DNA of 27,431 bases from a virus, in IMG/VR virus record IMGVR_UViG_3300029448_000278, positions 2,034 to 29,464 of that record; one strand, written 5' to 3'. Made by a program: the position numbers and the translations under genes. This document shows, in pieces, positions 1 to 23,484 of this stretch (position 1 is the first letter of the stretch; each line of letters opens with the position of its first letter). Under the pieces are notes generated by a model. It was not told the DNA's origin and ran no database searches. It saw nothing but the letters and a program-made list of their open reading frames with translations.

Positions 1-109
1 GATAAAGAAGCTACTGTAGTAGAATCCCATGAAATTAAATGTTGCTTAAGGCGTGGGTCTGACTTATTTAATGTCACACATAACCCATTCCGCAAAACTA
101 GGAGAGAAA

Positions 110-2473
110 ATGCAGAATGTAATAGAGTATTTAGAGCAGAAAATTATGAATACACCTCAGAGGTGGGCAGTAAGGCTGGTGAACGAGCACAAGCTAGAAC
201 CTAAGAGAGTTGTGTATGATGCACTAACTATATTGCAGTACCATTTTAGAAAGACTTCAACATCTGAATCAGCAACATGTAAACTTACTGCAGCCTCAGT
301 AGCTATAGGTAAGAACGTGTTGCTTCAGAAAGGAGTTGAGTTAGGATTTAGAGCCGATGTAACAATCGGCGACCTAATTCTTGAGGCTTTCTATGAGTGT
401 GGTTACATTAAGATTGTAAGAGCACCAACAGAAGCTCAAATGAAATGGGAAGCAAACCCGGTTGGTAAGAAACCGTATAGCCGTGCACCATATATGATTG
501 AAACCTCTGATAAATGGTTAAACATAGGATCATTACCTGACCAAGTAGTTAATGAGCTTATACAAAACACTTCAACTACTAAAATAAAACGCGTAAATAA
601 CTTGTTTCAAGATAACGGATTCCCAGTAATAAAGCACTGGGGGTTCGATAAAAGCGAAGACTTTAAGTTATTGCTTGATCAACCATTTATTGATGCAATA
701 AACAAACTACAACGTACAGCTTGGACAATCGACTCCGACATATTAGAAGCTGTACTTAAAAACAAGAGTAAGTTTGTTAGTGAAACTCTAAAAGTTGCTG
801 ATGAAACCGGTAAGAACTATAGATACTGTATTTTCGGTAACAACGAAGAGTTAGAAGGTAAGGACTTATACTGGAATGAGGTTGTGTTTAAACCTGAGTT
901 AGGTAATAAGTCTCTTGAAAAGAAATACTATGGTGAACTACGACGACTAACTAATAAGCTTCGTAATAAATCTAATAAAAAGCCGCTGATACGAGCTCAA
1001 GCTAAGTATGACGAAGCTGCTACACATTGGAACGCTAAGTTAGTATTACTTAAAAACCGTAGTAAATTTGACGCGTATAATATGACTGTCCAAAAAGCAG
1101 AAGCATTGAAGGATAAAATATTCTTTCAGTATGTAGATGCAGATTATAGGGGGAGATTGTATTATCGTGAATCGTATTTAAACTACCAAGGTAAAGATAT
1201 GGAGCGAGGTCTATTGAAGTTTGCTAATGCACAACCAATGACCGAAGAAGGTTTGTATTACTTTGCTGTGCATACAGCATGTTCATACAACCAGGCGTAT
1301 TCAATCGATAATATACCGGAGTGGTGTGAAGCCGATTATAAATCAGCGTTAGAAAATGAAGGTCTTACAGATATTTCTGTAGACAAAATGACTATTGACG
1401 ACCGAGTTAAGTGGGTTGTTAATAACGAAGACTTCATTAGAAATACATGGATAAACCGTACTATCCATGAAAGAGCTGAGAAGCCTGTAGGTTTTCTCGC
1501 TTGTTGCAAGGCGTGGTGTAACCTATGGGACACGTCTAAGACCGGTGAGTTTTATTACAGCGATCTTCCTATTCCTATTGATGGCTCTAACAACGGCTGG
1601 CAGCACTTAGCTGCTATATCTAAGGATAAAAACGCCGGTGAGCTAGTAGGTCTAGTAAAAACTGACATACCTAAAGACTTTTATGTGCAAACAGCTAAAG
1701 CATTGATAGCTCGCGTGCCTGAGTGGTTCGCGCAGAGAGACATGCCTATGAAACACATAAGGAAAGGTATATCGAAACGCGGAGCGATGACTAGAGCGTA
1801 CTCTGCGGGCCACCTAGCCATAGCTTTGAACATGTATGCTGACTGTTATGCTGAAGGATTCCATAGTAAGTACAATATTACTATGTCTGACTGTAACGAC
1901 TTAGCATTTCAGCTCATAAAAGCTATTGATGAGGTGTGTCCAGGCCCGTTAGAAACTATGAGTTACCTACAAGCTATAGCAAACCACATTATTGCTGAGT
2001 TAAAGGAACCTGTAGTTGACTGGCAAACTCCATCTGGCTTTCCAGTACGATACGAAAACTACGTAATGGAAGACGTTAAGTGGAAAAGTTGGATCTCTGA
2101 TATGAGAATCCAGCACGTAGGTAAAGAACATAGGCTAGTGTACGGTAAAAAGATACCTAGTCCTGGTGGCTTTGCCTCAGGTATAAGTCCAAACTTTATT
2201 CATAGTATGGACGCAGCACATATGGCTCTGATTATTCATCACTGGGACGGAGACTTTGCTGCTATTCATGACTCATTTTCTACTCACGCTTGTGATGTAG
2301 CTAGCTTGTTAGATTTAACTAAGGAAGTGTTCATTAAAATGTACGATCATGATGATTTTTATAAAGACATAGCAGAAATGTTATTGCTTGAACCTAAAAA
2401 GTTTAATTACAACTACAAGTTAGGAGATCTAGATATAAAAGGAATAGCTAACAGTGACTATTTCTTTTCTTGA
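110..2473 (+). CDS. T7-like single-subunit DNA-directed RNA polymerase
   Basis: Phage RNA polymerase that would transcribe the phage's own promoters in the host cytoplasm. From the ATG at 110 it is 787 aa (T7: 883). Visible motifs: DYRGR (D345-R349, the DxxGR motif), motif A IDGSNNGWQH (catalytic D491), motif B KRGAMTRAYS (K556 and Y564, eight apart as in T7 K631/Y639), and motif C IHDSFST (H720, catalytic D721). The C-terminus ends in aromatic residues (YFFS), comparable to the FAFA end of T7. I prefer the start at 110 because AGGAG lies at 100-104, five bases before it; in-frame ATGs at 53 and 71 have no convincing ribosome binding site. It is the only large gene on the + strand and runs towards the late operon. 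The family is certain; only the exact start is open. Confidence 0.97.
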   Translation: MQNVIEYLEQKIMNTPQRWAVRLVNEHKLEPKRVVYDALTILQYHFRKTSTSESATCKLTAASVAIGKNVLLQKGVELGFRADVTIGDLILEAFYECGYIKIVRAPTEAQMKWEANPVGKKPYSRAPYMIETSDKWLNIGSLPDQVVNELIQNTSTTKIKRVNNLFQDNGFPVIKHWGFDKSEDFKLLLDQPFIDAINKLQRTAWTIDSDILEAVLKNKSKFVSETLKVADETGKNYRYCIFGNNEELEGKDLYWNEVVFKPELGNKSLEKKYYGELRRLTNKLRNKSNKKPLIRAQAKYDEAATHWNAKLVLLKNRSKFDAYNMTVQKAEALKDKIFFQYVDADYRGRLYYRESYLNYQGKDMERGLLKFANAQPMTEEGLYYFAVHTACSYNQAYSIDNIPEWCEADYKSALENEGLTDISVDKMTIDDRVKWVVNNEDFIRNTWINRTIHERAEKPVGFLACCKAWCNLWDTSKTGEFYYSDLPIPIDGSNNGWQHLAAISKDKNAGELVGLVKTDIPKDFYVQTAKALIARVPEWFAQRDMPMKHIRKGISKRGAMTRAYSAGHLAIALNMYADCYAEGFHSKYNITMSDCNDLAFQLIKAIDEVCPGPLETMSYLQAIANHIIAELKEPVVDWQTPSGFPVRYENYVMEDVKWKSWISDMRIQHVGKEHRLVYGKKIPSPGGFASGISPNFIHSMDAAHMALIIHHWDGDFAAIHDSFSTHACDVASLLDLTKEVFIKMYDHDDFYKDIAEMLLLEPKKFNYNYKLGDLDIKGIANSDYFFS

Positions 2474-2709: not shown

Positions 2710-5700
2710 TTAACCGGCATCAATCTGAAATACGTCATTAAGTCTTTTCATTAGTTCTTTAAAGTATTGTTCTTTTGCCTTATCGTTGCCTTCTACAAAA
2801 GCTTTGTTACGCTCTACTAGTTTTAATTCTCTAATCATTTTTCTAAAAATATAAAGCATTTGTTTAGCGTTTAACTCTTTACGTGGCTCAGCACCTATAT
2901 ACTTAAATCTACTATCTGCATTTAAATTTGCCTTTTGAATATCAACCGCAGGACCAGACTTCTTACCATCTATATTAACAGTCATAATCCTATCAGCCAT
3001 ATTCATAGCAGCTAATTTCTTAGCAAAGCTGTATTCGCTAATAGTTTCAGGACGAATATTTTTAGTTTCCTTATCAACCTTCTTTTTATCTCTAGGTCTA
3101 AACTCCATAGTATCTTCTAATAACTCAACTAAGTTATTTAAACTTAATTTACCTGGCTCAACATAAAATGTAGGTTTAGTTGCATGCATTAAGTTATAGA
3201 ACATTTTAAATGGTCCTAACTCAGTAGCTATAATTCTCATAGAATCTTCTCTAGTAAACTCCTCGTCAACAGCTTGATTTTTTCTAGCGAACTCTCGCGC
3301 AATAGCTAAATTAACAGCATCAAAGCTTACTACTTGATCACCCATATCTTCTAGCTTCTTTTCGAATCTAGCAATAGCACCTGGCGTCCAGTCCATCATT
3401 AAACTTTTATATGGGCTATAGGTTTTTGTAACCTCAGACCAGTTTTTATTTGCTTCTCTTCGAACTGCAGCTCCACCCTTTATATCTGTTTTAACAGCAT
3501 CCATAATAGGTAGCATGTATTGACCTTGCAACTTATTCCATGATGAACCTGTAAACATCTTGTTCATCCATGCACCATCGATAGCTTGTATTATAGCTGG
3601 TATCAGTCTGCCTCTTGCCCAACCTCCGGGTCTACCGTCACGAGGAGCACTACCAGAAGGAACAGATTCCCTCATCCCAATACCTTTTACAACGACCTGC
3701 TTACCATCAGGGTTTATCTTAGAAGTAAGAATAGATATATCAGACATAACTGGCTGCCCAGTATCTCTATCTATTTTCTTTATACTTTCTTTAGCTCCGA
3801 TGTAGCTCTTAAATCCTAAAGCATTTTCGATTTCCATAATATCGTTTGACATTGTAGCTACGATGTTATTAGCTCTTAGCAACTGACCTACTTCTAGTAC
3901 ACCTGGATGTAATTCAGAATCTATTGAATCAGCTAATATATTATGTAAGTAATCAATGACAAAGTGCTCTTCAGTCTGACCGTTCTTATGATCTAATTTT
4001 TTATCAAGTGCTTTAGTATTTTTTAGATCAGCAATAATATCTCTGATTGGTGAAGAAAAGTCTCCTGCGAGAACAGTTTGACGAACTTCTGCATCTAGTC
4101 TTTGTATTAACCGACCATACGATAGCGTCATAACGGGCTGCTTCAAAAAATTATCTCTATCTTGAATAGCAAGGTTTAATATTTCATACAGCTTTTGACC
4201 AGTAGTTCCATCAACACCAAATCCGTTTACAGCATATTCTAAACCATTAGACTCCATGTAATAACCCATAGCATCTCTAATATCACCAGCTCTTTTTTCT
4301 ATTTCAGCCGGGCTTAAACCTTCTACTTCAGCTAGTTCTGCAACAGGAAGTTCATCTAAGTTCTTTTCTGCTCCAGTCTTTCTAAATACACCAGTTCTAT
4401 ACCCTTGCTTTATTGCGCCTAACGTGGCTAAAAACGAAGAAACCCCATGTGTTTTACCATCGTATTCTATACCTATATTAGTGGTAAACTTTGTACCATT
4501 TTTTATAGCTTGCAAATACTTCTTCATTTCTATAGCAGCTTCGATTCTATGGACACCATCAAGGTCTTCACTAAGACCTGCGCTATCTCTAGTTCTAGCC
4601 ATTAAGCTATCAGGAATATTAAGTAAAGGTACGTTAGCTAACTGCTCAGGTACCTTAATATAAGTATTATCAGTAAGAGTAGCAGGTTCCATCTGTCCTG
4701 TCTCAGGGTTCATCATCATTTTATTTTGCTGACGAGGATTAACCGATGGACCAATCTCTCTAAGAAGTCCTAATGTTTCTTCATGAGCTTCAGCGTTCAT
4801 TAAGCTCTCTTCTACTACAGCACCTTCAGCAGCAATAGCATCAAACAAACTACCTGGCTGACCGCTTTCTGCCATAGCTTCATCAAACATTCTTTCACGT
4901 ACCTTAGGTAAAGCTTTCTTACCACCAGGAATAAAGAGTATAGCCATCAGTTCTTTAAACGTACCATGCTCTTCAGACGCTGCTTTGGGATTAAAGGTTG
5001 TAGGTTCTACACCTCCTGTTATGTATCGTACCCAAGGTATAAGTTGTGGATTAAATCTTGTTTGATCAACGTGCATACGGGTTGTTAGCTCTTGCAATAC
5101 AAAATCTAAATGGTAAGCTCCGTTGCTGTATCTACCTATTGTATTTAAAAACTCTAAAGCTCTAGTGAATTGCTTATCCATTTCGTAAGCAGGATCGTAT
5201 TCAGCATCTATTTCAGCTTTAGCTATTTCGTACAGATCACCGTCAAACGTAATTGATTTACTACCAGGCCCTGATAATTTTTGTACTCTTTCAGCAATCT
5301 TTCTATCTTTTTCTCCTTGGAAAGCTCTAAACTTTTCAGGTCCTAATTTAAAAAGATCACCGACAGGGTCAAGGTCTTGTTGGCTTTTAGCCTGGCGCAA
5401 CGCTTCAAATATTAATTGAATGCTAAGTTTAGATCGCAAAGTATCTATCTTATGAGGAATAGAGTTCATATTCAAGCGACCTTCTTCTACTTGCCTTAAC
5501 TTACGGTTGTATATAGCAGTAGTTCTAATGTTAGCTTGCTGATCACTAGGTAATACGTTAGGAGTTGTTACTAATCTTGGTTTTCTTTCTACATTTTTAA
5601 ATGCATCAGGGGCCGATTGAGCAGACGCTTCTAAAGCTTTTAATCCCCACTCAGTTAATTGATACTTAACTATATTACCTGTAGTTTCTTTTGTCATTAA

Positions 5701-7062
5701 GTCTGGGTTAGTCGATTGCCAAGCATCTCTAGCAAAAGCTCCTATAGTTTCGTATTGATCATTAGTTAAAGCATTTACATTGTAGTTACTAGTCGGTCTA
5801 CCTAAAGCTCTGTTCTGTTCTCGCTTCCATTCTTTGTATATTTCTCTACCAAGTCTTGAAGCACCTGCAACTCTGCTTGCGCCGCCTTGTTCAATCTGAG
5901 CTGGCGCTTCTCCTGAAGGACCATCTTCAAATAGCTCTAGCTGTTCAGGCCTAATCACTCCCTGATCTACAAGTTCTTGACTAGCTTCTGTTCCAAGTGC
6001 AGGAACATACTGAGTCTGCAATAAATGCTTTTCAGTAACAAAGTTCATAATCCTTATAAGCTTAGGGTCAACTAACATTTGATTCTGTTTAGTTCTAGTA
6101 AGCGGGTTAGGTAAAAATACTCCACCATTAAATCCGTTAGGATCAAAGAATATACCTTTTAAACTTAATGGATTAAAAGAAATACCAGGATGGTAGTCAT
6201 TAAGATAATCTAAAAAAGTTTTTGGTGCATCATTAGCCATTCGTTGTTCTGCATCCATCTTCTCATTAAACAATGCTTGTTCGTTTTGATTAAGATTAGC
6301 AGGCATTCTAAGAGTTTCTTCTCCGCCTCTTAGTACGTTCGATCTACCTCTGCCTTCATCTATAGCAGAAGCTATTGTAGCTTTTATCATAGATTTAGCT
6401 TGGGCTGGCTTAGCATACGCCATCTGAATATCTGTTCCGGCGCCTGCAATTTCAGGACTTACCTTACCCCATACTCCTGCAACAAGTTTATCACCACGCG
6501 CTACAGTCTGCCCAAAGCCATCGTTTAAAATGCTAGTAACTGACTCTCCTTGCGGTGCAATTTTGTTAACTAAGTTTTGTGTAGTAGGTGCAAAGGATTG
6601 GCCAGCAGCTTCTGCAGCTAATAGCTTTCTTCTTTCATTAGCATCTAAAGTTATCTCAGGTCTTATATCTGCAATAGGATCTACTGTTTCTTCTCGCTGC
6701 TGTTGAGCTGCGAGTTCGTCTATACCAGCTTCTTCTCTTCGCTTTAGATCTATAAACTCTTGTTCTTGTCTAACTCTCTCTTGATCTTGAAAGTTAAACT
6801 TAGTTGGCTTTATTGTATCAGGAAGATTAGGATCATCTTTACCTTGTCGGTAGTAAGCAAATGATTCATCTGAGTAAGGGTTAAACTGCTTATCAGTAAG
6901 CCTGCTAGTAGAATACCTGTACTGTAAGCTTTGTGGACCTTTCTCTTTTAGTCTTTCAATAGCAGTCTTAGGTCTTGTTTGCATACCTAACTCAGCTACC
7001 TGAGCTTCTCGTTCTCTTGTATCTTCTATAATTTTCGTTTGTGGGTTTACTCTTATTGCCAT
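2710..7062 (-). CDS. Giant virion protein with embedded second single-subunit RNA polymerase domain (vRNAP-like)
   Basis: 1450-aa last gene of the late operon. Residues about 550-1250 show diverged single-subunit RNA polymerase motifs: TTRMHV followed by FNPQ (R662, aligned with the T/DxxGR and NPQ motif), motif A IEYDGKTHG (D868), motif B KQPVMTLSYG (K974, Y982; T7 has KRSVMTLAYG with the same eight-residue spacing) and motif C QAIDGAW (D1162, with Ile where T7 has His). The A-B and B-C spacings (106, 188) are close to those of T7 (94, 181). The first 450 residues or so are unrecognised and charged, with a likely coiled coil near 92-125. Start 7062 has AGGTGA upstream and follows the preceding stop by three bases. 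Position and size suggest an ejected internal protein, as with the N4 virion RNA polymerase. Motif B is convincing; enzymatic activity and virion location are inferred. Confidence 0.82.
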   Translation of the reverse strand: MAIRVNPQTKIIEDTREREAQVAELGMQTRPKTAIERLKEKGPQSLQYRYSTSRLTDKQFNPYSDESFAYYRQGKDDPNLPDTIKPTKFNFQDQERVRQEQEFIDLKRREEAGIDELAAQQQREETVDPIADIRPEITLDANERRKLLAAEAAGQSFAPTTQNLVNKIAPQGESVTSILNDGFGQTVARGDKLVAGVWGKVSPEIAGAGTDIQMAYAKPAQAKSMIKATIASAIDEGRGRSNVLRGGEETLRMPANLNQNEQALFNEKMDAEQRMANDAPKTFLDYLNDYHPGISFNPLSLKGIFFDPNGFNGGVFLPNPLTRTKQNQMLVDPKLIRIMNFVTEKHLLQTQYVPALGTEASQELVDQGVIRPEQLELFEDGPSGEAPAQIEQGGASRVAGASRLGREIYKEWKREQNRALGRPTSNYNVNALTNDQYETIGAFARDAWQSTNPDLMTKETTGNIVKYQLTEWGLKALEASAQSAPDAFKNVERKPRLVTTPNVLPSDQQANIRTTAIYNRKLRQVEEGRLNMNSIPHKIDTLRSKLSIQLIFEALRQAKSQQDLDPVGDLFKLGPEKFRAFQGEKDRKIAERVQKLSGPGSKSITFDGDLYEIAKAEIDAEYDPAYEMDKQFTRALEFLNTIGRYSNGAYHLDFVLQELTTRMHVDQTRFNPQLIPWVRYITGGVEPTTFNPKAASEEHGTFKELMAILFIPGGKKALPKVRERMFDEAMAESGQPGSLFDAIAAEGAVVEESLMNAEAHEETLGLLREIGPSVNPRQQNKMMMNPETGQMEPATLTDNTYIKVPEQLANVPLLNIPDSLMARTRDSAGLSEDLDGVHRIEAAIEMKKYLQAIKNGTKFTTNIGIEYDGKTHGVSSFLATLGAIKQGYRTGVFRKTGAEKNLDELPVAELAEVEGLSPAEIEKRAGDIRDAMGYYMESNGLEYAVNGFGVDGTTGQKLYEILNLAIQDRDNFLKQPVMTLSYGRLIQRLDAEVRQTVLAGDFSSPIRDIIADLKNTKALDKKLDHKNGQTEEHFVIDYLHNILADSIDSELHPGVLEVGQLLRANNIVATMSNDIMEIENALGFKSYIGAKESIKKIDRDTGQPVMSDISILTSKINPDGKQVVVKGIGMRESVPSGSAPRDGRPGGWARGRLIPAIIQAIDGAWMNKMFTGSSWNKLQGQYMLPIMDAVKTDIKGGAAVRREANKNWSEVTKTYSPYKSLMMDWTPGAIARFEKKLEDMGDQVVSFDAVNLAIAREFARKNQAVDEEFTREDSMRIIATELGPFKMFYNLMHATKPTFYVEPGKLSLNNLVELLEDTMEFRPRDKKKVDKETKNIRPETISEYSFAKKLAAMNMADRIMTVNIDGKKSGPAVDIQKANLNADSRFKYIGAEPRKELNAKQMLYIFRKMIRELKLVERNKAFVEGNDKAKEQYFKELMKRLNDVFQIDAG

Positions 7063-7065
7063 TCG

Positions 7066-10000
7066 TCACCTATAATCCTGTGCTTCTAATGCTGATCTAC
7101 CACCGAAATCCCAGTACGACGGTTCTTTTAAATCTGAAAATGCAGGTGCTTGCTGCATAAACATCTGTGTTAATGGAGATATTTTAGCCAATGTTTCAGG
7201 TGGTTTCTCTCCGCTTAGTACATCGTATCCTATGCCACCGCCTCTTAATGCTTTACTTAATGAAGCTGATTCACCAGACACAGTACCAAACGCCCAACCT
7301 ACAGTAGTCTTATATCTCTTCTCGTACATTGGAAAAGCAAAGTCAAGTAGTCTTTCACCTGAACCTAACAATCCACTTGCAGCTATACCACGTCTCATGT
7401 ACTCTGACCCTTCAAAGTACGGAGTTGTTGTGCCATACTTAAGCAAGTCTTTTAAATGCTGAGATACAAAGCCTAACATTATCATAGTAGCAGCTGTTGC
7501 AAACATGTTGTATCTCATAGCAGGTGTACCACGTTTTACAAGATCACCCCACATTTTAGGTAAATGAAACGCTGTAAACGTAGATATAAAACCTTGGAAC
7601 TGCGTAAACAAAGCAAACCTAGGATCTTGGAATATCAGAGGTCTTATACCAGACTTAGGTAACACAACAGCCTCATTTACAAAAGCAAACTCAGCGTTAC
7701 GCATAAAGTCTCTGTATTGTCTTCGATCTTCCTGGTTAAGACCTACACCTCTTGTAGTTTTCTTTAAGTGTAATTCAACCATCCAGTCAGGATCAATACC
7801 AAGATTACGTAAAGCTTCTTTAGCTTCAGCTTGCTCGTTAGTAAACTGCGTACTCCTTGAAAGGATTTGGTTATCGTTATTTACTGACTGTTCTTGCGTA
7901 GGTCCTATAAAATCAGGTTCTACTCGGCCTTCGAGCAATGTAGCTATCTTATCTGTAATGTAATCGCCAGCAATAGAAGCTCGCCCAGCTCTCATAGCGT
8001 TAGTCCACTGTTGTAGTAGTACTATCTTAAAGTACATATCTAAAACACGTTGTCTAAATGCGCCAGTTTCACTAACACCTGTTGTATGCGCAGCACCAAC
8101 TTCCCAACTCATATAGCCTAGCTGTTTTGCTCTTCTATATCCTGGTGTAGATCGTTTGTGCGGTGTTACTTTACCTGTAGCAGTACCATAAAATCTGTTA
8201 GCTGTATTCTTTACTTCTTCTACAAAAGATCTAGCAAGTTCATTTAAACTTCCTTTAGTATTTGGCCCACCAAAAATCTGTTGTCTTGTAAGACCTCTTA
8301 ATCCTGTACCTATCTCAACCATATTAGATACAGTAGCAAGTGGTAACGATGTAAGTGCTGTTACAAACAGTAAGTTCTTTTGAGCCCATATCATTAAAGG
8401 GCTTAAGTTTCTTTTATAGTTACCTGACTCAGCATCAAAGTAGTTCTTCATATCAAAAGCAAATTTGTTTATAGCTTCAGAAACTTCTTCTGGATCCATA
8501 CCAGATTCTAAAAGCTCTTGCTCCATTTCAGCTAACTGCATATTTATTTTTTCGTTATTAGAACCTACAAACTCTTCTAATACTTTATATCTAATAGCAG
8601 ATTTAGAATGGTTAGATACATTAGTGAATAAATCTCCTTCCATAAACTCTGAAAACTTTTCGTTCTGAGCTAATCCTAAAGTTCTTTTACGATGACTGCC
8701 TGGTGTAAACTTAGATTTAGAGGTAACAGAAAAGTTACCATCAGCTGTATCGAATAAATTATTTAAACCATCTTGCGTTAGTATAGCTTCAGTAACTTCT
8801 CTAGCTTTAGTAGGAGTAAAGCCATATTCACTTATAAGCAATGATTCAAACTTACCTTGGTTAGAAGCAATAGCTTCTCTATCAAATGTTTTAGCTCTCA
8901 TTAAGTAGTTAGTAATAAACCCTAATTGCGGATTATGTACAGCTTGCATATCATGAAGCTTTTTACTAGTCTTATCTAACTTGCTTGCAAATGATTTAAA
9001 CTGTGGCATATACTGTCTAAAATAGTTTATGGCATCCTTAGTCTCTTGACTAACAGATCTATCTCTATCAACAGCTGCCCAGTCTCTATCAAAGTTAACT
9101 GCTCTTCCATCTCCAGCTTTCTTTTTAGCTGCGCCAAATGCTAGATAAAACATTTCACTAAACTTTTTTCTAGACTTTCTAGAATCTGTCATGTTAAATG
9201 CTGCAAGTATAGAAGTCGGGTCACCAAAGAACTGGTTTATCTTAGATATTTCATGGTGCTTTCTATCTTCATAAGACTCACCACTAGTACGCCTTTGTAG
9301 GTTACCATCTAAACCATCAATAAAAAGACTAAGTCGTCTTGAAGCATCTTGCAAGTACTCTTTACCTGCATGTCTAGTTATACCTCTCCATAAGCCTGGT
9401 ATACCTTTCCATAAATCTGTTGCAACTTCTTGCGCGCTTCTTTTCTTAATCCTTTTGCTATGTGCTTTAGCTCTATTATTAATGTCTACCTTTGCAGCTC
9501 GCTCTAGTATTTTTAATTCTCTAGCTAACTTTATTCTATCATTTCCTCTAGTTGTAGATCGATTAATTAAGTTTTTAATTTCTTTGATTCTTCGTTCAGC
9601 ATCATCAACTCTAGCTTTTGTTTTGCGGTTTTCTTCTTGAACATTAAACTGTCTTCCGTTATTTTCTTTTCTATCTCGTTCAGCTAATGCTCCCATCTTA
9701 GAACTGTGTTGCCCAGTACTCCTACCTGTTCTATGAGATACATCGTACCACATTCCATAATCGTATATAGTACCCGGCGTAGCAAAAGCTCCACCAAGAG
9801 AAGAACCTGCAATAGTTGCATCAATCATTCTATCTAAATATACGTTAGCATCCCAATCTCTAAATCCATTAGCTGTATGAGCAGCAGTATAACCAACAGA
9901 TTCTTGTAAAGCTTCTGTTGAACCTTCAGCAGCCATACCTAAGCCTACTCGTTTTGTAAAAGATCGCGCAACGTTTCTAGCTGTAAGCTGTTGCTTAGCA

Positions 10001-11298
10001 AATTTTGCAGCGTCTGTAGAAAACTTAGCAATTTCTTTTCTACTAACACGTAACAGTATATCTTGGGCGGCAGTAGGACTTAATGTTGTGCCACGAGGTA
10101 TAGCCATACTAGCAATACCTTTATTCCTAGCTGCGGTTCTTATATTTTCTATAGCTTCATTTCTAAACTCTTTGTTTAATAAAGTAGTTGCTCCTGTACC
10201 TTTAAACAACATTTGTACACCCAGCCTATCTAATACAGTCTGAGTTAATCCAGCTGCAACAGCTAATGTTGCGTTTTTATTATCGCCTTCTTGTTCGTTC
10301 CACACTGTACCTGTATATAAACTAATAGGCGCAAGTAACGAAAGACCTTTAGTAACAGGAGCTAACATCATACCAGCTATAGTTGTTCCCATGTAAGGTA
10401 AAGATATAGCACCCATGTTAGCTACATACTGTAAGAATCCCTCACGACCAAAAAATCCGTTGATGTCTTTATAGCTAGCTACAATTTCAGGTCTTGAAGC
10501 TAAATATTCTCTTTGCGCTTTAATTCTATTCTCACCTACGTTTTTAAGCCAGTCCCAACCAGTCTTTTCACCAAGCATATCTACAACGCCAAACCCACCT
10601 TCAATAGCACCATTAAGACCTATATCAATAGAAGTAGCAAACGGGCTAACAGCTTTATTATCTAATGTTCTGCTAGGATCTCTGTATGCTACCTGACCAG
10701 GAGCATAGAAGTTACCACCATAAGCTAGTTGCATTTCATCAAGAGCTACTTGCTTAAGTTGTAGTTCGTATTTAGTTTCTCTTTGTATAGCATCATTGAT
10801 AGCGTTTCTAGCTACGTCGTAATCTTCTCCCATACTTTCTGTGCCAAGCACATTAGATAGCTGTCTAGCTTTAACAGCATCATCACTACTATACTTAGTA
10901 AGATCTAGTATACCTGCTCGAGCTAGCTCAGTCTCAAAACTTCTACCTAAATTATCTCTAAGTTCTATAATTTCACGGTTCATTCCGTCAAACTCACCAG
11001 TCCTTATTACGTCGGTAAACCCTCTTTTACGAGCTAAGTTCATTAGTGCTGCGTTAGCCGTTCTTCCACCGGCAGTACCACTTTTAGGTCCTTTATCTTT
11101 AAAGTATCTAGTAACTTCAGGAGAATCTATGCCTTTAATTCTACCTCTCCAATTAGGCTCTGAGGAATCAGTAGAACGAAGAGTGTCGGCATCCATAAAA
11201 TCATAGTTTTCATTTAAGGCGTATGGGTTACCATTTACTACTCCCATTTCAGGAACTAGTTTAGAAGACTTCATTCTTTCTGCAAAAGATTTTGCCAT
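7066..11298 (-). CDS. Giant internal virion/ejection protein with N-terminal SNase-like nuclease domain
   Basis: 1410 aa. Residues 33-135 match the staphylococcal (thermo)nuclease fold: DADT (D38), RIKGIDSPE (R53, D58, E61) and DNLGR (R119), then ARAGI. These align with SNase D21, R35, D40, E43 and R87, and the R-to-E spacing of eight is kept, so an active Ca-dependent nuclease is plausible. The rest is unlike SNase: hydrophobic stretches near 289-330 and 970-990, a charged coiled coil near 545-622, and a hydrophobic segment near 1255-1285 before a Gly/Ser-rich end. Such long, partly membrane-active proteins next to the nozzle and transglycosylase genes are typical of podovirus DNA-ejection proteins (compare T7 gp15/gp16), which is how I read it. 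Start 11298 is preceded by AAGGA. The nuclease domain is well supported; the ejection role comes from context. Confidence 0.8.
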   Translation of the reverse strand: MAKSFAERMKSSKLVPEMGVVNGNPYALNENYDFMDADTLRSTDSSEPNWRGRIKGIDSPEVTRYFKDKGPKSGTAGGRTANAALMNLARKRGFTDVIRTGEFDGMNREIIELRDNLGRSFETELARAGILDLTKYSSDDAVKARQLSNVLGTESMGEDYDVARNAINDAIQRETKYELQLKQVALDEMQLAYGGNFYAPGQVAYRDPSRTLDNKAVSPFATSIDIGLNGAIEGGFGVVDMLGEKTGWDWLKNVGENRIKAQREYLASRPEIVASYKDINGFFGREGFLQYVANMGAISLPYMGTTIAGMMLAPVTKGLSLLAPISLYTGTVWNEQEGDNKNATLAVAAGLTQTVLDRLGVQMLFKGTGATTLLNKEFRNEAIENIRTAARNKGIASMAIPRGTTLSPTAAQDILLRVSRKEIAKFSTDAAKFAKQQLTARNVARSFTKRVGLGMAAEGSTEALQESVGYTAAHTANGFRDWDANVYLDRMIDATIAGSSLGGAFATPGTIYDYGMWYDVSHRTGRSTGQHSSKMGALAERDRKENNGRQFNVQEENRKTKARVDDAERRIKEIKNLINRSTTRGNDRIKLARELKILERAAKVDINNRAKAHSKRIKKRSAQEVATDLWKGIPGLWRGITRHAGKEYLQDASRRLSLFIDGLDGNLQRRTSGESYEDRKHHEISKINQFFGDPTSILAAFNMTDSRKSRKKFSEMFYLAFGAAKKKAGDGRAVNFDRDWAAVDRDRSVSQETKDAINYFRQYMPQFKSFASKLDKTSKKLHDMQAVHNPQLGFITNYLMRAKTFDREAIASNQGKFESLLISEYGFTPTKAREVTEAILTQDGLNNLFDTADGNFSVTSKSKFTPGSHRKRTLGLAQNEKFSEFMEGDLFTNVSNHSKSAIRYKVLEEFVGSNNEKINMQLAEMEQELLESGMDPEEVSEAINKFAFDMKNYFDAESGNYKRNLSPLMIWAQKNLLFVTALTSLPLATVSNMVEIGTGLRGLTRQQIFGGPNTKGSLNELARSFVEEVKNTANRFYGTATGKVTPHKRSTPGYRRAKQLGYMSWEVGAAHTTGVSETGAFRQRVLDMYFKIVLLQQWTNAMRAGRASIAGDYITDKIATLLEGRVEPDFIGPTQEQSVNNDNQILSRSTQFTNEQAEAKEALRNLGIDPDWMVELHLKKTTRGVGLNQEDRRQYRDFMRNAEFAFVNEAVVLPKSGIRPLIFQDPRFALFTQFQGFISTFTAFHLPKMWGDLVKRGTPAMRYNMFATAATMIMLGFVSQHLKDLLKYGTTTPYFEGSEYMRRGIAASGLLGSGERLLDFAFPMYEKRYKTTVGWAFGTVSGESASLSKALRGGGIGYDVLSGEKPPETLAKISPLTQMFMQQAPAFSDLKEPSYWDFGGRSALEAQDYR

Positions 11299-11310: not shown

Positions 11311-14300
11311 TTAATTGCTTTCGTTTCTTTTTTTAAGTGCCTCTTTCATTTCAGCATCTATTTTTTCTTTTAGAAATTCATAAAATCCACTAGTACCGGT
11401 TTTATAAGCATAGTTCCAATAGTCTTTTCTATCTGCTTTACTAAGGTTTTCGTCATCAAGCTTTTCACCTTCCATTCTTACACCACTCCATAGTTCTGCA
11501 AGATCTTCTATGTATAAGGCAGCTGCTTCATTTTTATCAGTAATTTCTGGAAATTCACTCATAGTTATATAAGCTGCCTCGTCTAAAGCTTTAGTAAACT
11601 TTATCATATCTACATGGTCTCGCTTTCCAGCTACTCCATCCCAGTCTTTTTCATGCTTCTTATCTGGTTGAGTTCTAAATAATTGATCCTGACCTGTGTA
11701 TTGTTTATATAATAACTCGCCTAATTGAGGTACTAAAGAATTAACCTTTTTTCTTTGTTCTTTTGGTTTATTAAATTCATTTTCAATAGCGGCTTTGTAT
11801 GCCATGGGTATGATAGTCTGTATTTGAGTTATGTCAGCTTTGTTATTAAGCATCCAGTTAATAACTTCACTAGCGGCTATTCCTGGAGTTAAGCCATCAA
11901 CTGCATCTAGTTGATCTCCGTATGTTCCTTCCAGTTCTACTTGTAGTTCTTTAATGTAACCACCAAAAGTTTTACTAAACTTATTTACTATTTCTAATCT
12001 ATCGTTAGATCCCTTAGAATAAATACCTGTTTCATCATATTCAGCTCGGTTATGAAACTTTCCGTCGGTTCCCAGAAATTTAACTTGCTTTGTATCACCA
12101 GTACCTTCATGTACTTCTTCAACTACCATTTTTTCACCAGTAATTTTATTATACCAGTTTCTAAATTTACCTTGTCTGTATATTGGTTTTCCTAATGGAA
12201 TTAGTTTTGAGTAATCACCAGTCCTTACGTATTCAGCTACACTTTCAGGAGTGTAGTTCTTAGCTTGAGCGCTTTGTGAAAACTTTATTCGTGACGCTTC
12301 AAGCGAATCTACTCTTGCTACATAGTTCTTAACTGCAAAGTTTAAACTACCTCCATGATCATAACCCATAAGACGAGATCCAAGATACATAACAGCCATA
12401 CGCTTAAGCTCATTCTTATTAAACAGACTTCCAAATATACCTTCTAAAAATCCAACAGCTTTATTCTTTTCTTCTTGAGAAGCTTTTCCTCCGGTTTCTT
12501 CTACTGTATTTTTGTTTGTGTTTTCAAGTTTTTCGTTTGCCTTAGTATTACTTGCAACTTCAGCTAGCTTACCCTTCTTTTCATCGATGCTAACTTCTTT
12601 AGTTCCACCTACTGTGGGAGGTTCTAGTTTACCTTCGTTTATAGTACCTCTAAACGTTTCAGTTTCTGTTTTAGGAAGAGTCGATATTCCCTGAGGATTT
12701 TTCTCATCTCTTGTAGGAGGAAAGAACATAGGTGCATTAATGTCTTTGCCTTGTTCTAAAGCTTTCGATAGTATCTTATCAGGATATACAGATTCTTTCT
12801 CTAATCTTTCATTATATCCAGGAAAAGATTCGTTAACTACTTCTTTAAAACTTCTGCCTGGTTCATTAACTTCAAGTGTAGTGTCTTGTTCTGTGGGCTT
12901 AACAGCTCTCATTACAGCATCTTGATACACAGGAGGCGGCTGAGGGATATACGCGTCTATATCGCCACTAAAGTTTTGATAGTCTTCTTCAGTTGCTCGA
13001 CGATCTACTCTTCCTCTAGGTATATTAGGTATAGCTTCTCCCATCCTTTCGCTCAACGTTTTTGTTTCAACGTTAGTTCCTTGAATAGGAGGCATTACTA
13101 TTTTAGGAGAGCCATATAATTGCTCTTCCATATTCATAGTAGATACGTCCGGTCTACCATCAGCATCCATATCTAGCGCGTACATTGGCTTTGTTCTTAA
13201 TAAATCATCAAAGCTTTCATAACCTATTCTTGGATTAGTCATGTTTTGAGAAGGGGTAAATGTTAATTCCCTATCAGATTCAGCAGGAGTGCTACCAGAG
13301 TAATTAGGAATGTTAGCAGAAAAATTATCCATAGGCACAGATTTTGCGTTGAATGCAGTATCACTTGGAAGATCTATTCGAGGTACCCCAGCGATGTTCT
13401 GTGCGCCACTCGTGTTAGATACAGGAACATTGCTAGCTACAGGCATAATATTACTTGGTGGTACCTGATCAGCAGCTTCGATAACTGTGCCTGGTATTTC
13501 TTTATTTATTTGTGCAAGGGCATTTCTAATATCTGAGTTATCCGATTGACTATCAGAATACTTTGCTATACTATCAAAAGTTAAGTTACCAGTTTCTTTA
13601 TCTATCCAATTTTTATTTTGCTTATAACCTCTACTATCTTTTTCGTAAGCAATCATATTTGGGTTAACGCTACCATCTTCAGAAGCGTTCTTAGCTTTAG
13701 TGTAAGCACCAGGAGCTGCTTGCATTATGCCTAAGTGAACGTTACCTTGGTAACCCCACATATCTAAATATTTTTCGTACAACTTTAGTTGTTCAACTTC
13801 ATCCATTGCTCTTATGTTAGCAGTCGTAAAGTCTTTAGGAACTATACCTAACCTTCTCATATCTTTAAGAGGTGTTTCAGTTATTTGAAATAAACCAGAC
13901 GCACTACCTTTATCGTACTTTTCACTGGTATCAGTCATGCTACTTTCACCAGCCATCATTTCATAAAGTCGTTCCTTATTAAAGTAAGGTCCCTTGTACT
14001 TTTCTAACATACTGTTTAATTGAGCTGTCCAGTTAGGGTTATCTTCTAATGCTAATATAGCTTCTCCTTTATTTGCGTACGTAACATCAGTCATTTTATC
14101 AGGAGCAGAACCATTTTGCTTTTGAATCTTTCTCCCTACGTTATTCATTTTTTCTATTACATCACCAAAAATATCTGTAGCTTCTTTATTAACTACAAAC
14201 TCGCCTGGTGTAAGCCAAGCTGGTACTGTATCGGTTCCTTTAGGATCACCTGGGTGGTTACTTGTATCTCCTCCCTTAGCAGAATACTTAGGTATTCTAG

Positions 14301-14454
14301 ATACTGGAGGTACATTAGATTCAGGAATATCAAACTCAAAAGACATTTTGTTCCCATGTCTATCTTTCAAGATCTTTTTCTTAAGAAACTTTCCATCCAT
14401 TTCTTGAGACATCATGTTGCCATGACGATCTGTTTGAGTATACTTTTTAAGCAT
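11311..14454 (-). CDS. Internal virion protein with lytic transglycosylase-like domain
   Basis: 1047 aa. Residues 59-92 carry a GG..NHPGDPKGTDTVPA-LTPGEFVVNK type motif that is widespread in phage tail and tape-measure proteins. Residues about 150-260 look like a lytic transglycosylase (lysozyme fold): AGESS with candidate catalytic Glu170, then SGLFQIT (187-192) and a later QAAPGAY segment. The enzyme would open peptidoglycan locally during genome entry, as the N-terminus of T7 gp16 does. Near the N-terminus DRHGN-MS occurs twice (about 9-15 and 31-37), a short internal repeat. Residues 260-700 are low-complexity, Pro/Asn/Thr-rich and probably disordered; the C-terminal 350 residues are charged and helical. 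Its ATG overlaps the upstream stop (TAATG). Domain assignment is by motif only. Confidence 0.8.
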   Translation of the reverse strand: MLKKYTQTDRHGNMMSQEMDGKFLKKKILKDRHGNKMSFEFDIPESNVPPVSRIPKYSAKGGDTSNHPGDPKGTDTVPAWLTPGEFVVNKEATDIFGDVIEKMNNVGRKIQKQNGSAPDKMTDVTYANKGEAILALEDNPNWTAQLNSMLEKYKGPYFNKERLYEMMAGESSMTDTSEKYDKGSASGLFQITETPLKDMRRLGIVPKDFTTANIRAMDEVEQLKLYEKYLDMWGYQGNVHLGIMQAAPGAYTKAKNASEDGSVNPNMIAYEKDSRGYKQNKNWIDKETGNLTFDSIAKYSDSQSDNSDIRNALAQINKEIPGTVIEAADQVPPSNIMPVASNVPVSNTSGAQNIAGVPRIDLPSDTAFNAKSVPMDNFSANIPNYSGSTPAESDRELTFTPSQNMTNPRIGYESFDDLLRTKPMYALDMDADGRPDVSTMNMEEQLYGSPKIVMPPIQGTNVETKTLSERMGEAIPNIPRGRVDRRATEEDYQNFSGDIDAYIPQPPPVYQDAVMRAVKPTEQDTTLEVNEPGRSFKEVVNESFPGYNERLEKESVYPDKILSKALEQGKDINAPMFFPPTRDEKNPQGISTLPKTETETFRGTINEGKLEPPTVGGTKEVSIDEKKGKLAEVASNTKANEKLENTNKNTVEETGGKASQEEKNKAVGFLEGIFGSLFNKNELKRMAVMYLGSRLMGYDHGGSLNFAVKNYVARVDSLEASRIKFSQSAQAKNYTPESVAEYVRTGDYSKLIPLGKPIYRQGKFRNWYNKITGEKMVVEEVHEGTGDTKQVKFLGTDGKFHNRAEYDETGIYSKGSNDRLEIVNKFSKTFGGYIKELQVELEGTYGDQLDAVDGLTPGIAASEVINWMLNNKADITQIQTIIPMAYKAAIENEFNKPKEQRKKVNSLVPQLGELLYKQYTGQDQLFRTQPDKKHEKDWDGVAGKRDHVDMIKFTKALDEAAYITMSEFPEITDKNEAAALYIEDLAELWSGVRMEGEKLDDENLSKADRKDYWNYAYKTGTSGFYEFLKEKIDAEMKEALKKRNESN

Positions 14455-21700: not shown

Positions 21701-23434
21701 TTATGCGCATTCCTTAACCCCAGTTTGTGGATCAATGAAACACGCTTCGACTTTATCTTCTTCTTGAATTGATTGAACCTCAGCCTTATCTTTCTTTTCT
21801 TCTTCCACGGCCGTGAGGATTCCGTATCTTTTACCACTGAGTCTGAACGTTGTACATCCTTTCGCCCCGCCTTTCCAGGCATCCACATAAACTTGTTTAA
21901 ATTTACTATACTCAACATCGTCCCCTACGTTACAGGTTTTTGAACAAGCACTATCAATATAATGCTGGGCTAATAGTAAAACAGATAAGTGCTCAACCAC
22001 AGTTACCTCGTTAGCTGTTTTACCTTCTACTCCTTTTGAGTAGGCATAATCTTCTACTCGCTCAACCTTAGGTCCATCAAAAGTTTGAATTGTTCTATCG
22101 TAGTAATGACTGAAGACGGGCTCAATCCCTCCTGAAACATTGTCAGCAACCAAGCTAATAGTGCCAGTAGGAGCGATAGACGTAAGGTGTGAGTTTCTGA
22201 TGCCATGCTGTTTTATTAGTTTCCTCACTGAATGTGGTAAACTTCTAACAAAATTTGATTTTAAATAAGCTTCTCTATATAGCGGGAACTCTCCCTTTTC
22301 TTTAGCTAACAATGCAGAAGCTTTGTAACAGTTGTCTCTTAAACAAGCAAATACTTTTTCTGCCCAATCCATAAATTCTTGAGATGCGTAAGGTAATCCA
22401 AGCATTTCACCTGCATTAGCAAGACCAGTAATCCCTAATCCCATACGTCTTTTATTCTTTGCTTCGTCTGATTGTTGTTTTAACGGATATATAGTTCTAT
22501 CAATAACATTATCCATAGCTCTTACAACATCAGGTATATCTTTTTTAAACTGATCGAAGTCAAATAGGTTTTGTATATCTTCTATAATGTACTTTGTTAA
22601 ATTAAAGCTACCTAATAAGCACGCTCCGTACGGCGGTAATGGTTGTTCACCACACGGATTTGTAGCTACTATTTCTTCGCAGTATTGTAAGTTATTCATT
22701 TCAGCTATGCGATCAATAAATAATACTCCTGGTTCTGCCCAGTCCCAGGTAGATTCCATTATCTGATCCCATAGTTTTTTAGCACATATGGTTTTATGTA
22801 CGTGATCTTCAAATACTAAGTCAAACGAGCTATCGCCTTCATTAGTTAAAGCTTCCATAAACTTATCGGTTATGCCAACACTAATATTAAAGCCAGTAAG
22901 ACGATCAGAGTTACGTTTAGCAGTAACGAACTCCTCAATATCCGGATGATCGACCCTGAGTACACCCATCTGCGCCCCGCGTCTGTGTCCCGAACTAGCG
23001 ATGGTTTGACAGATAGAATCAAAGATACCCATAAAGGAGACCGGACCACTAGCTTGGCTATCAAGCGATTTAATCTTATCGCCTCTTGGCCGGATCTTTG
23101 AGAAGTCATAGCCAATGCCACCACCTCTACGCATTGTTTCAGCTGCTTCACTTGCTTTCTCCATTATTGCATTCATACTATCTTCTATAGTTCCAGAAAC
23201 AAAACAGTTATAAGCTGTGGTTATACGGTTACTACCTACTGCGGATTGTACTCTACCAGCAGGTAGGAACCTCATATTACCTAGTATATTTTCTAATGCA
23301 TTTTTATGGTTTACATCGTCCATTAAAGCTCTTGATATTCTTTTTATTTTTTCCTCAAAGCTTTCACCTGTTTGTCGATATTTCATTTCATCGATCTCTA
23401 TAGATATAGGTGTTTCAGGTCCAGTATAATGCAT
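21701..23434 (-). CDS. nrdJ: Class II (adenosylcobalamin-dependent) ribonucleotide reductase
   Basis: 577 aa from the ATG at 23434. It reduces ribonucleotides to deoxyribonucleotides with a B12-derived radical, supplying DNA precursors in the infected cell. Key residues are present: C77 in YNCFV and C272 in YGACLLGS (the redox pair), C261 (thiyl radical site) and E263 in NPCGEQPLPP. The C261-to-C272 spacing of 11 equals C408-C419 in Lactobacillus RTPR. Glycine-rich RRGGGIGYDFS and the GCTTFR segment also fit. The C-terminus has a C565-x10-C576 pair, not the more usual closely spaced cysteines. I chose 23434 because AGGAG lies eight bases upstream; a GTG start at 23479 would have no ribosome binding site. 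It sits between structural and lysis-type genes, not in a replication module. Confidence 0.95.
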   Translation of the reverse strand: MHYTGPETPISIEIDEMKYRQTGESFEEKIKRISRALMDDVNHKNALENILGNMRFLPAGRVQSAVGSNRITTAYNCFVSGTIEDSMNAIMEKASEAAETMRRGGGIGYDFSKIRPRGDKIKSLDSQASGPVSFMGIFDSICQTIASSGHRRGAQMGVLRVDHPDIEEFVTAKRNSDRLTGFNISVGITDKFMEALTNEGDSSFDLVFEDHVHKTICAKKLWDQIMESTWDWAEPGVLFIDRIAEMNNLQYCEEIVATNPCGEQPLPPYGACLLGSFNLTKYIIEDIQNLFDFDQFKKDIPDVVRAMDNVIDRTIYPLKQQSDEAKNKRRMGLGITGLANAGEMLGLPYASQEFMDWAEKVFACLRDNCYKASALLAKEKGEFPLYREAYLKSNFVRSLPHSVRKLIKQHGIRNSHLTSIAPTGTISLVADNVSGGIEPVFSHYYDRTIQTFDGPKVERVEDYAYSKGVEGKTANEVTVVEHLSVLLLAQHYIDSACSKTCNVGDDVEYSKFKQVYVDAWKGGAKGCTTFRLSGKRYGILTAVEEEKKDKAEVQSIQEEDKVEACFIDPQTGVKECA

Positions 23435-23441
23435 TTGTAGT

Positions 23442-23477
23442 TCTCCTATTAAGAAAGTTTTGTCTCTAATAGGAGAC
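23442..23477 (-). promoter_or_regulatory. Hairpin that can bury the ribosome binding site of nrdJ, with an alternative stem
   Basis: Read on the - strand, TCTCCTATTA (23476-23467) pairs perfectly with TAATAGGAGA (23451-23442) over 10 bp with a 15-base loop; the second arm contains the AGGAGA ribosome binding site of nrdJ. A competing 5-bp stem, GTCTC (23477-23473) with GAGAC (23466-23462) around a 6-base loop, uses the first arm and would free the site. The two folds are mutually exclusive, so a translation switch is possible. The structure is visible in the sequence; its function is inferred. Confidence 0.6.
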
Positions 23478-23484
23478 ACTTTGG

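Follow-up and report, generated by a model that had tools for sequence, protein, structure and literature searches.

Ejection proteins have been viewed as channel builders accompanied by peptidoglycan cutters and, in phage N4, by an RNA polymerase. The N4 polymerase is ejected along with two further ejection proteins (PMC12633501), and the ejection proteins of both N4 (gp50, the virion RNA polymerase or vRNAP, with gp51 and gp52) and T7 (gp14, gp15 and gp16) are encoded by three adjacent genes. A nuclease goes unmentioned in the N4 ejectosome paper (PMC12633501), unlike the situation in the protein described here, which carries a domain of the staphylococcal nuclease (SNase) type. Polyvalent proteins are likewise large, are thought to be injected and sometimes contain DNases, but the DNases named in the paper concerned are ParB-like, and SNase appears nowhere in it (Iyer et al. 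2017, PMC5512222). In the open-access literature that we searched, a set outside which many papers lie, no SNase on an ejection protein was described; the initial annotation of this DNA, which knew of no such fusion in the T7 or N4 ejection proteins, is in agreement with this.

A further described system is that of the LUZ24-type phages, whose proteins LUZ24 gp50 and tf_51 (phrog_6958) resemble the core of our protein from approximately residue 221 and share its distal place in the late operon. Nine virion proteins of LUZ24 have been found by mass spectrometry (PMC3517423), and gp50 is counted here among those nine by its database name, 'phage particle protein'. The three LUZ24-type proteins examined are of 927–1039 aa and, unlike our protein, are without an SNase domain.

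The DNA analysed here (the window) is a stretch of 27,431 nucleotides, positions 2,034 to 29,464 of the 29,464-base IMG/VR virus record IMGVR_UViG_3300029448_000278. It encodes a protein of 1410 aa, P0001, made up of an SNase-type domain at the N-terminus and a LUZ24 gp50/tf_51-type virion-protein core. Both halves are of known kinds; as far as the papers searched go, it is their combination that is new.

Identification of the SNase-type domain

Gene order and late-protein orthologues held in common identify the virus as a podovirus of the CRP-7 type, a group of which the short-tailed Roseobacter phage CRP-7 is a cultured member. The P0001 gene and the parts of its N-terminal domain are as follows.

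7066..11298, minus strand: giant protein P0001, 1410 aa (single uninterrupted ORF, ribosome-binding site, homologues)
10879..11202, minus strand: SNase-type nuclease domain, residues ~33–140 (profile and fold matches, conservation)
11182..11193, minus strand: motif 1, D36-A-D38-T39, equivalent to SNase D19-x-D21-T22 (D36, D38 and T39 invariant, 23/23)
11116..11142, minus strand: motif 2, R53 ... D58-S-P-E61, equivalent to SNase R35 ... D40-T-P-E43 (R53 and E61 invariant)
10975..10989, minus strand: motif 3, D104 ... R108, equivalent to SNase D83 ... R87 (R108 in 23/23, D104 in 22/23)

A clear, strong ribosome-binding site, GGAAGGA, stands five bases before the P0001 start (GGAAGGA-CTAAC-ATG), directly past the stop of the upstream gene. 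Positions 10894–11202 of the minus strand correspond to residues 33–135, and hydropathy analysis of the protein gives two hydrophobic stretches, at 307–325 and 976–994. An antisense ORF over the domain (10841–11206, plus strand) was set aside as a mirror of the coding sequence. An internal start parting the domain from the core was also considered and is not proposed, since the alignment contains no conserved Met between the two.

With P0001 alone as the query, searches of Pfam, NCBIfam and the PDB gave no match to SNase, so that relatives were needed for detection of the domain. These came from overlapping sets of IMG/VR loci: 18 found with alignment A1, seven with CRP-7 gp34 and 19 with a domain profile. 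The N-terminus of one relative scored 17.2 bits (E 0.0073) against Pfam SNase (PF00565), so that even the best relative falls under the cut-off of 21 bits, and its matches to SNases in the PDB were also weak. A profile built from the domains of 15 relatives, however, placed staphylococcal nuclease at the head of its PDB matches (E 0.009–0.07 among those listed), with 174 sequences under E 1, and the alignment pairs SNase residues D19, D21, R35, D40, E43, D83 and R87. The same profile matched a separate, annotated SNase of mycobacteriophage Adler (a 203-aa open frame, E 3.8e-6) and CRP-7 gp34, which lies outside the profile (4e-20), and gave no match in three LUZ24-like phages. The SNase-like positions of one relative's domain are also found in phrog_8809 (2317 positions, function unknown; E 1.6e-5); the match covers profile positions 1101–1192, and phrog_8809 may perhaps represent another giant phage protein, with an internal SNase.

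An AlphaFold model of the domain, made from the relatives' alignment, was of medium confidence (mean pLDDT 74.6, pTM 0.67). Its strands (32–36, 39–42, 51–54, 96–103 and 109–114) and helices (59–69, 75–91, 121–127 and 139–148) follow the SNase order, strand-strand-strand-helix-strand-strand-helix-helix, and the model shows an OB-type fold of five strands together with three helices, again in that order. The fold search that the initial annotation had proposed gave SNases as the top structural matches of this predicted model: all 50 Foldseek matches listed from the PDB were SNase entries, with a probability of ~1.0, and VIA-align gave a Z score of 7.6, which is under 8, over 109 residues. In a viral structure library the best match was a protein of 1368 aa, the same length as translated CRP-7 gp34, and the third was an uncultured-phage protein of 1342 aa (A0A6J5NQ80) labelled SNase-like in UniProt. 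On the strength of the model and the profiles, we regard an SNase fold for the N-terminal domain of P0001 as near certain. The SNase domain that had been placed at this N-terminus from the window alone is thus borne out by the relatives' profile, the predicted fold and residue conservation.

Each of the CRP-7-type records searched (18/18) has the domain exactly once, and always at this N-terminus. No relative was found in the bacterial genomes searched, and tblastn with the complete P0001 sequence as query gave no match among 50,697 phage records; the CRP-7 match surfaced only when a relative's N-terminus was the query. CRP-7 gp34 (QBQ72827.1, 1368 aa) is an orthologue with the same fusion, the full catalytic set and the same gene order, although only 21% identical to P0001 overall. 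The CRP-7 record labels it 'hypothetical protein', and in the text of the CRP-7 paper (PMC6918029) the word nuclease appears only within compounds such as endonuclease and exonuclease. The two genomes also differ at the B12-dependent ribonucleotide reductase, which in CRP-7 (L005:1390-4008) is annotated as two genes with gp45 between them and in the window is one 592-aa frame (21701–23479); an inserted element is possible in CRP-7.

Conservation of the catalytic residues

The P0001 domain is like the staphylococcal/micrococcal nuclease superfamily (PF00565) in its fold, in the order of its strands and helices and in the residues equivalent to D19, D21, T22, R35, E43 and R87. It differs in that the P0001 family is very divergent, in that D40 is not fixed and in being fused before a giant phage protein. 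Conservation was counted over 23 distinct sequences; as these are related to one another, the column counts are not independent. Eleven positions of the domain show no variation (D36, D38, T39, R53, E61, L88, A89, G93, F94, R108 and G118), and six of the 11 are the SNase positions D19, D21, T22, R35, E43 and R87, the catalytic set being kept between clades that share as little as 21% identity. The D38 position is that of the SNase Ca2+ ligand D21. At D58, the position of the second Ca2+ ligand D40, the residue is D in 14, E in seven, N in one and S in one of the 23 sequences, while P0001's own copy has the full catalytic set, D58 included. Relatives read D-x-x-G-R-E at 104–109 ('DRFGRE', 'DPNGRE', 'DPHGRE'), position 107 (SNase G86) is variable, and Y136, which lies close to SNase Y113/Y115, is kept in 22 sequences and replaced by F in one.

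The alignments agree with the initial annotation in equating D38, R53, D58 and E61 with SNase D21, R35, D40 and E43. Its choice of R119 (10942..10944, minus strand) as the equivalent of R87 was wrong: R119 is replaced by Q in 5/23 sequences and in the model lies after strand 5, in the loop between that strand and the next helix, and the true equivalent is the invariant R108 (23/23).

Because the catalytic set is conserved, nuclease activity of the P0001 domain is likely. Some relatives' domains may be weak or inactive, since 9/23 have E, N or S in place of D40. These same replacements, together with the variation at position 107 and the danger of enclosing a nuclease in a capsid, would fit a domain that is no longer a nuclease and serves as an SNase-fold nucleic-acid-binding or structural cap, its phosphate-binding arginines holding DNA. 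We consider this rather unlikely, as the residues with a part in catalysis and Ca2+ binding and not in gripping DNA, E43 and D21, are invariant along with R35 and R87, and P0001 itself retains the full set.

The P0001 core and the neighbouring genes

The core and the genes around P0001 are arranged in the window as follows.

7066..10638, minus strand: P0001 core, from ~residue 221 (homologous to LUZ24/tf 'phage particle protein')
11311..14454, minus strand: P0004, 1047 aa, upstream ejection-protein candidate (relatives' SLT or Pesticin/lysozyme-like domain)
2710..7062, minus strand: P0003, 1450 aa, downstream giant protein, candidate virion RNA polymerase (motifs, relatives' matches)
53..2473, plus strand: T7-type RNA polymerase (Pfam RNA_pol 2.2e-55, phrog_414 2e-102)

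A profile of the whole P0001 family matched the LUZ24/tf 'phage particle protein' with the match starting at residue 221 (hhalign probability 99.9%, E 4e-31), and an HMM matched tf_51 with an E value of 7e-33. As for the LUZ24 gp50 type, the P0001 gene is a distal late gene that is convergent with the early genes. Because the LUZ24/tf homologue of the core is without the domain, the marine lineage would have acquired SNase at the N-terminus, loss elsewhere being less likely. The domain tree and the core tree agree on well-supported groups, which argues that the fusion is old and has been inherited with its protein. As judged by sequence comparison, the domain is under purifying selection: its dN/dS lies at 0.02–0.39 for all pairs that show changes, much as for the remainder of P0001.

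One of the 18 loci found with alignment A1 matched weakly and in the core only. This locus (L021:5755-12441, IMGVR_UViG_2654587552_000001) encodes a protein whose length is at least 2229 aa and which has the polyvalent-protein domains LPD5 and LPD1; the weak match is to P0001 core residues 250–405 and hints at a module common to podoviral ejection proteins and polyvalent proteins.

P0004 is 37–57% identical, in stretches, to a protein of the related locus L002 that has a transglycosylase SLT domain, whereas its counterpart in CRP-7, gp35, has a Pesticin/lysozyme-like domain in place of SLT. The two loci (L005:10193-13861 in CRP-7 and L002:3087-5936) thus show an apparent swap of muralytic domains. 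P0004 opens with an imperfect repeat, DRHGNMMSQEMD ... DRHGNKMSFEFD (window 14331–14454), which is single in the L002 orthologue; after the repeat comes a 'PAWLTPGEFVVNKEA' motif, within the stretch matched by the tape-measure profile phrog_25241.

P0003 has motifs A (D868-G-x-T-H-G), B (K974-x-x-x-M-T-x-x-Y-G) and C (I-Q-x-x-D-G...P-I-x-D1188) of the single-subunit RNA polymerase type, at approximately 4444–4461, 4114–4143 and 3484–3594, and its orthologues have them too. Relatives of P0003 matched the 'virion RNA polymerase' profile phrog_2206 over the motif A region in 4/5 genomes, one of these matches also covering the motif C region, in order, and the relative in one genome matched phrog_414 (1.2e-10). 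CRP-7 gp33 gave no match to the virion RNA polymerase profile, and profile searches of the PDB with P0003 found no polymerase. The model of the polymerase region is poor (mean pLDDT 51); it nevertheless matched single-subunit RNA polymerases best, with POLRMT and N4 RNAPII among its first four matches. The separate T7-type RNA polymerase gene is convergent with the late genes, and CRP-7 is arranged alike.

P0004, P0001 and P0003 are three large, adjacent proteins, one of them muralytic by the SLT domain of its L002 orthologue, and the long third gene is present in 14/14 loci examined. They are likely to form a three-protein ejection cassette, laid out like those of N4 and T7; the RNA-polymerase-like member resembles N4, and the transglycosylase member resembles T7 gp16. 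The description of P0001 as a giant ejection protein, already made in the initial annotation, is supported by the homology of its core to the LUZ24/tf proteins and by this context, and from homology and synteny P0001 is probably both present in the virion and ejected. A late-gene position would suit any virion protein, and P0001 might accordingly be an external tail or assembly protein whose SNase has a late role, but the homology to a protein that LUZ24-type phages encode distally in their late operon and the company of transglycosylase and RNAP-like proteins make it improbable that P0001 is not ejected.

Possible action of the nuclease at infection

Our working model, the most likely of the readings considered, is that P0001 is an ejection protein of the LUZ24 gp50 type that has gained an SNase, so that the ejectosome brings a Ca2+-dependent nuclease with it; for this model as a whole we put belief and doubt at equal weight. 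P0001 would be packed in the virion and at infection would enter the cell envelope before the DNA, together with the muralytic P0004 and the RNA-polymerase-like P0003. Kept in place at the channel through which the DNA enters, the SNase domain would act as a Ca2+-dependent, largely sequence-independent phosphodiesterase, cutting nucleic acid other than the protected incoming genome, either the host's or a competing phage's DNA, at the entry site and within the first minutes. That the target is host or rival nucleic acid is a tentative part of the model.

The phage's own DNA is a quite improbable target, although one with some points in its favour. Nicking or trimming of the genome in the capsid or upon entry might, for example, free or open an end for a co-ejected polymerase; the core family is a virion protein, so that packaged DNA should lie close to the domain, the adjacent gene encodes a putative virion RNA polymerase, and the N4 vRNAP requires single-stranded promoter DNA. 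SNases are, however, without sequence specificity, LUZ24-like phages manage without the domain, and the genome of tf has site-specific nicks, yet tf is without SNase.

Ca2+ levels bear on where the domain would act. Seawater contains ~10 mM Ca2+ and the bacterial cytoplasm well under 1 µM; the periplasm is rich in Ca2+ and the cytoplasm is not. The activity of an SNase should therefore be much higher in the periplasm than inside the cytoplasm, and this speaks for the envelope as its place of action, or for an attack on host or rival nucleic acid where the DNA enters. The suitability of periplasmic and seawater Ca2+ for SNase chemistry would equally serve a nuclease that clears extracellular or periplasmic DNA at adsorption, or that brings about superinfection exclusion by degrading, in the periplasm, the DNA of a second phage, and its N-terminal placement is like that of the envelope-acting domains of ejection proteins. 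The entering DNA of the same phage would then need shielding, and we consider such a role unlikely. The working model, too, requires some restraint: as long as the virion is in seawater, with its abundant Ca2+, a non-specific nuclease enclosed with the packaged DNA would have to be kept from cutting.

A broader and doubtful proposal is that at entry these phages inject a three-part kit. One part would be a protein that cuts the cell wall, the second a channel protein bearing a Ca2+-switched nuclease of the secreted type, and the third a virion RNA polymerase, besides the T7-type polymerase. The nuclease of this kit would stay silent while in the capsid or the cytoplasm and become active in the periplasm, where Ca2+ is plentiful. 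If this is true, it would be the first virion-delivered SNase, and P0003 the first virion RNA polymerase outside the N4-like and crAss-like phages to occur alongside a T7-type RNA polymerase.

The group concerned consists of widespread marine phages with a cultured member, CRP-7, and across the whole group probable ejection proteins carry a cargo that standard annotation has missed. A nuclease conserved on an ejection protein would let attack on nucleic acid precede phage gene expression, and how the capsid keeps such a nuclease off its own DNA becomes a testable question.
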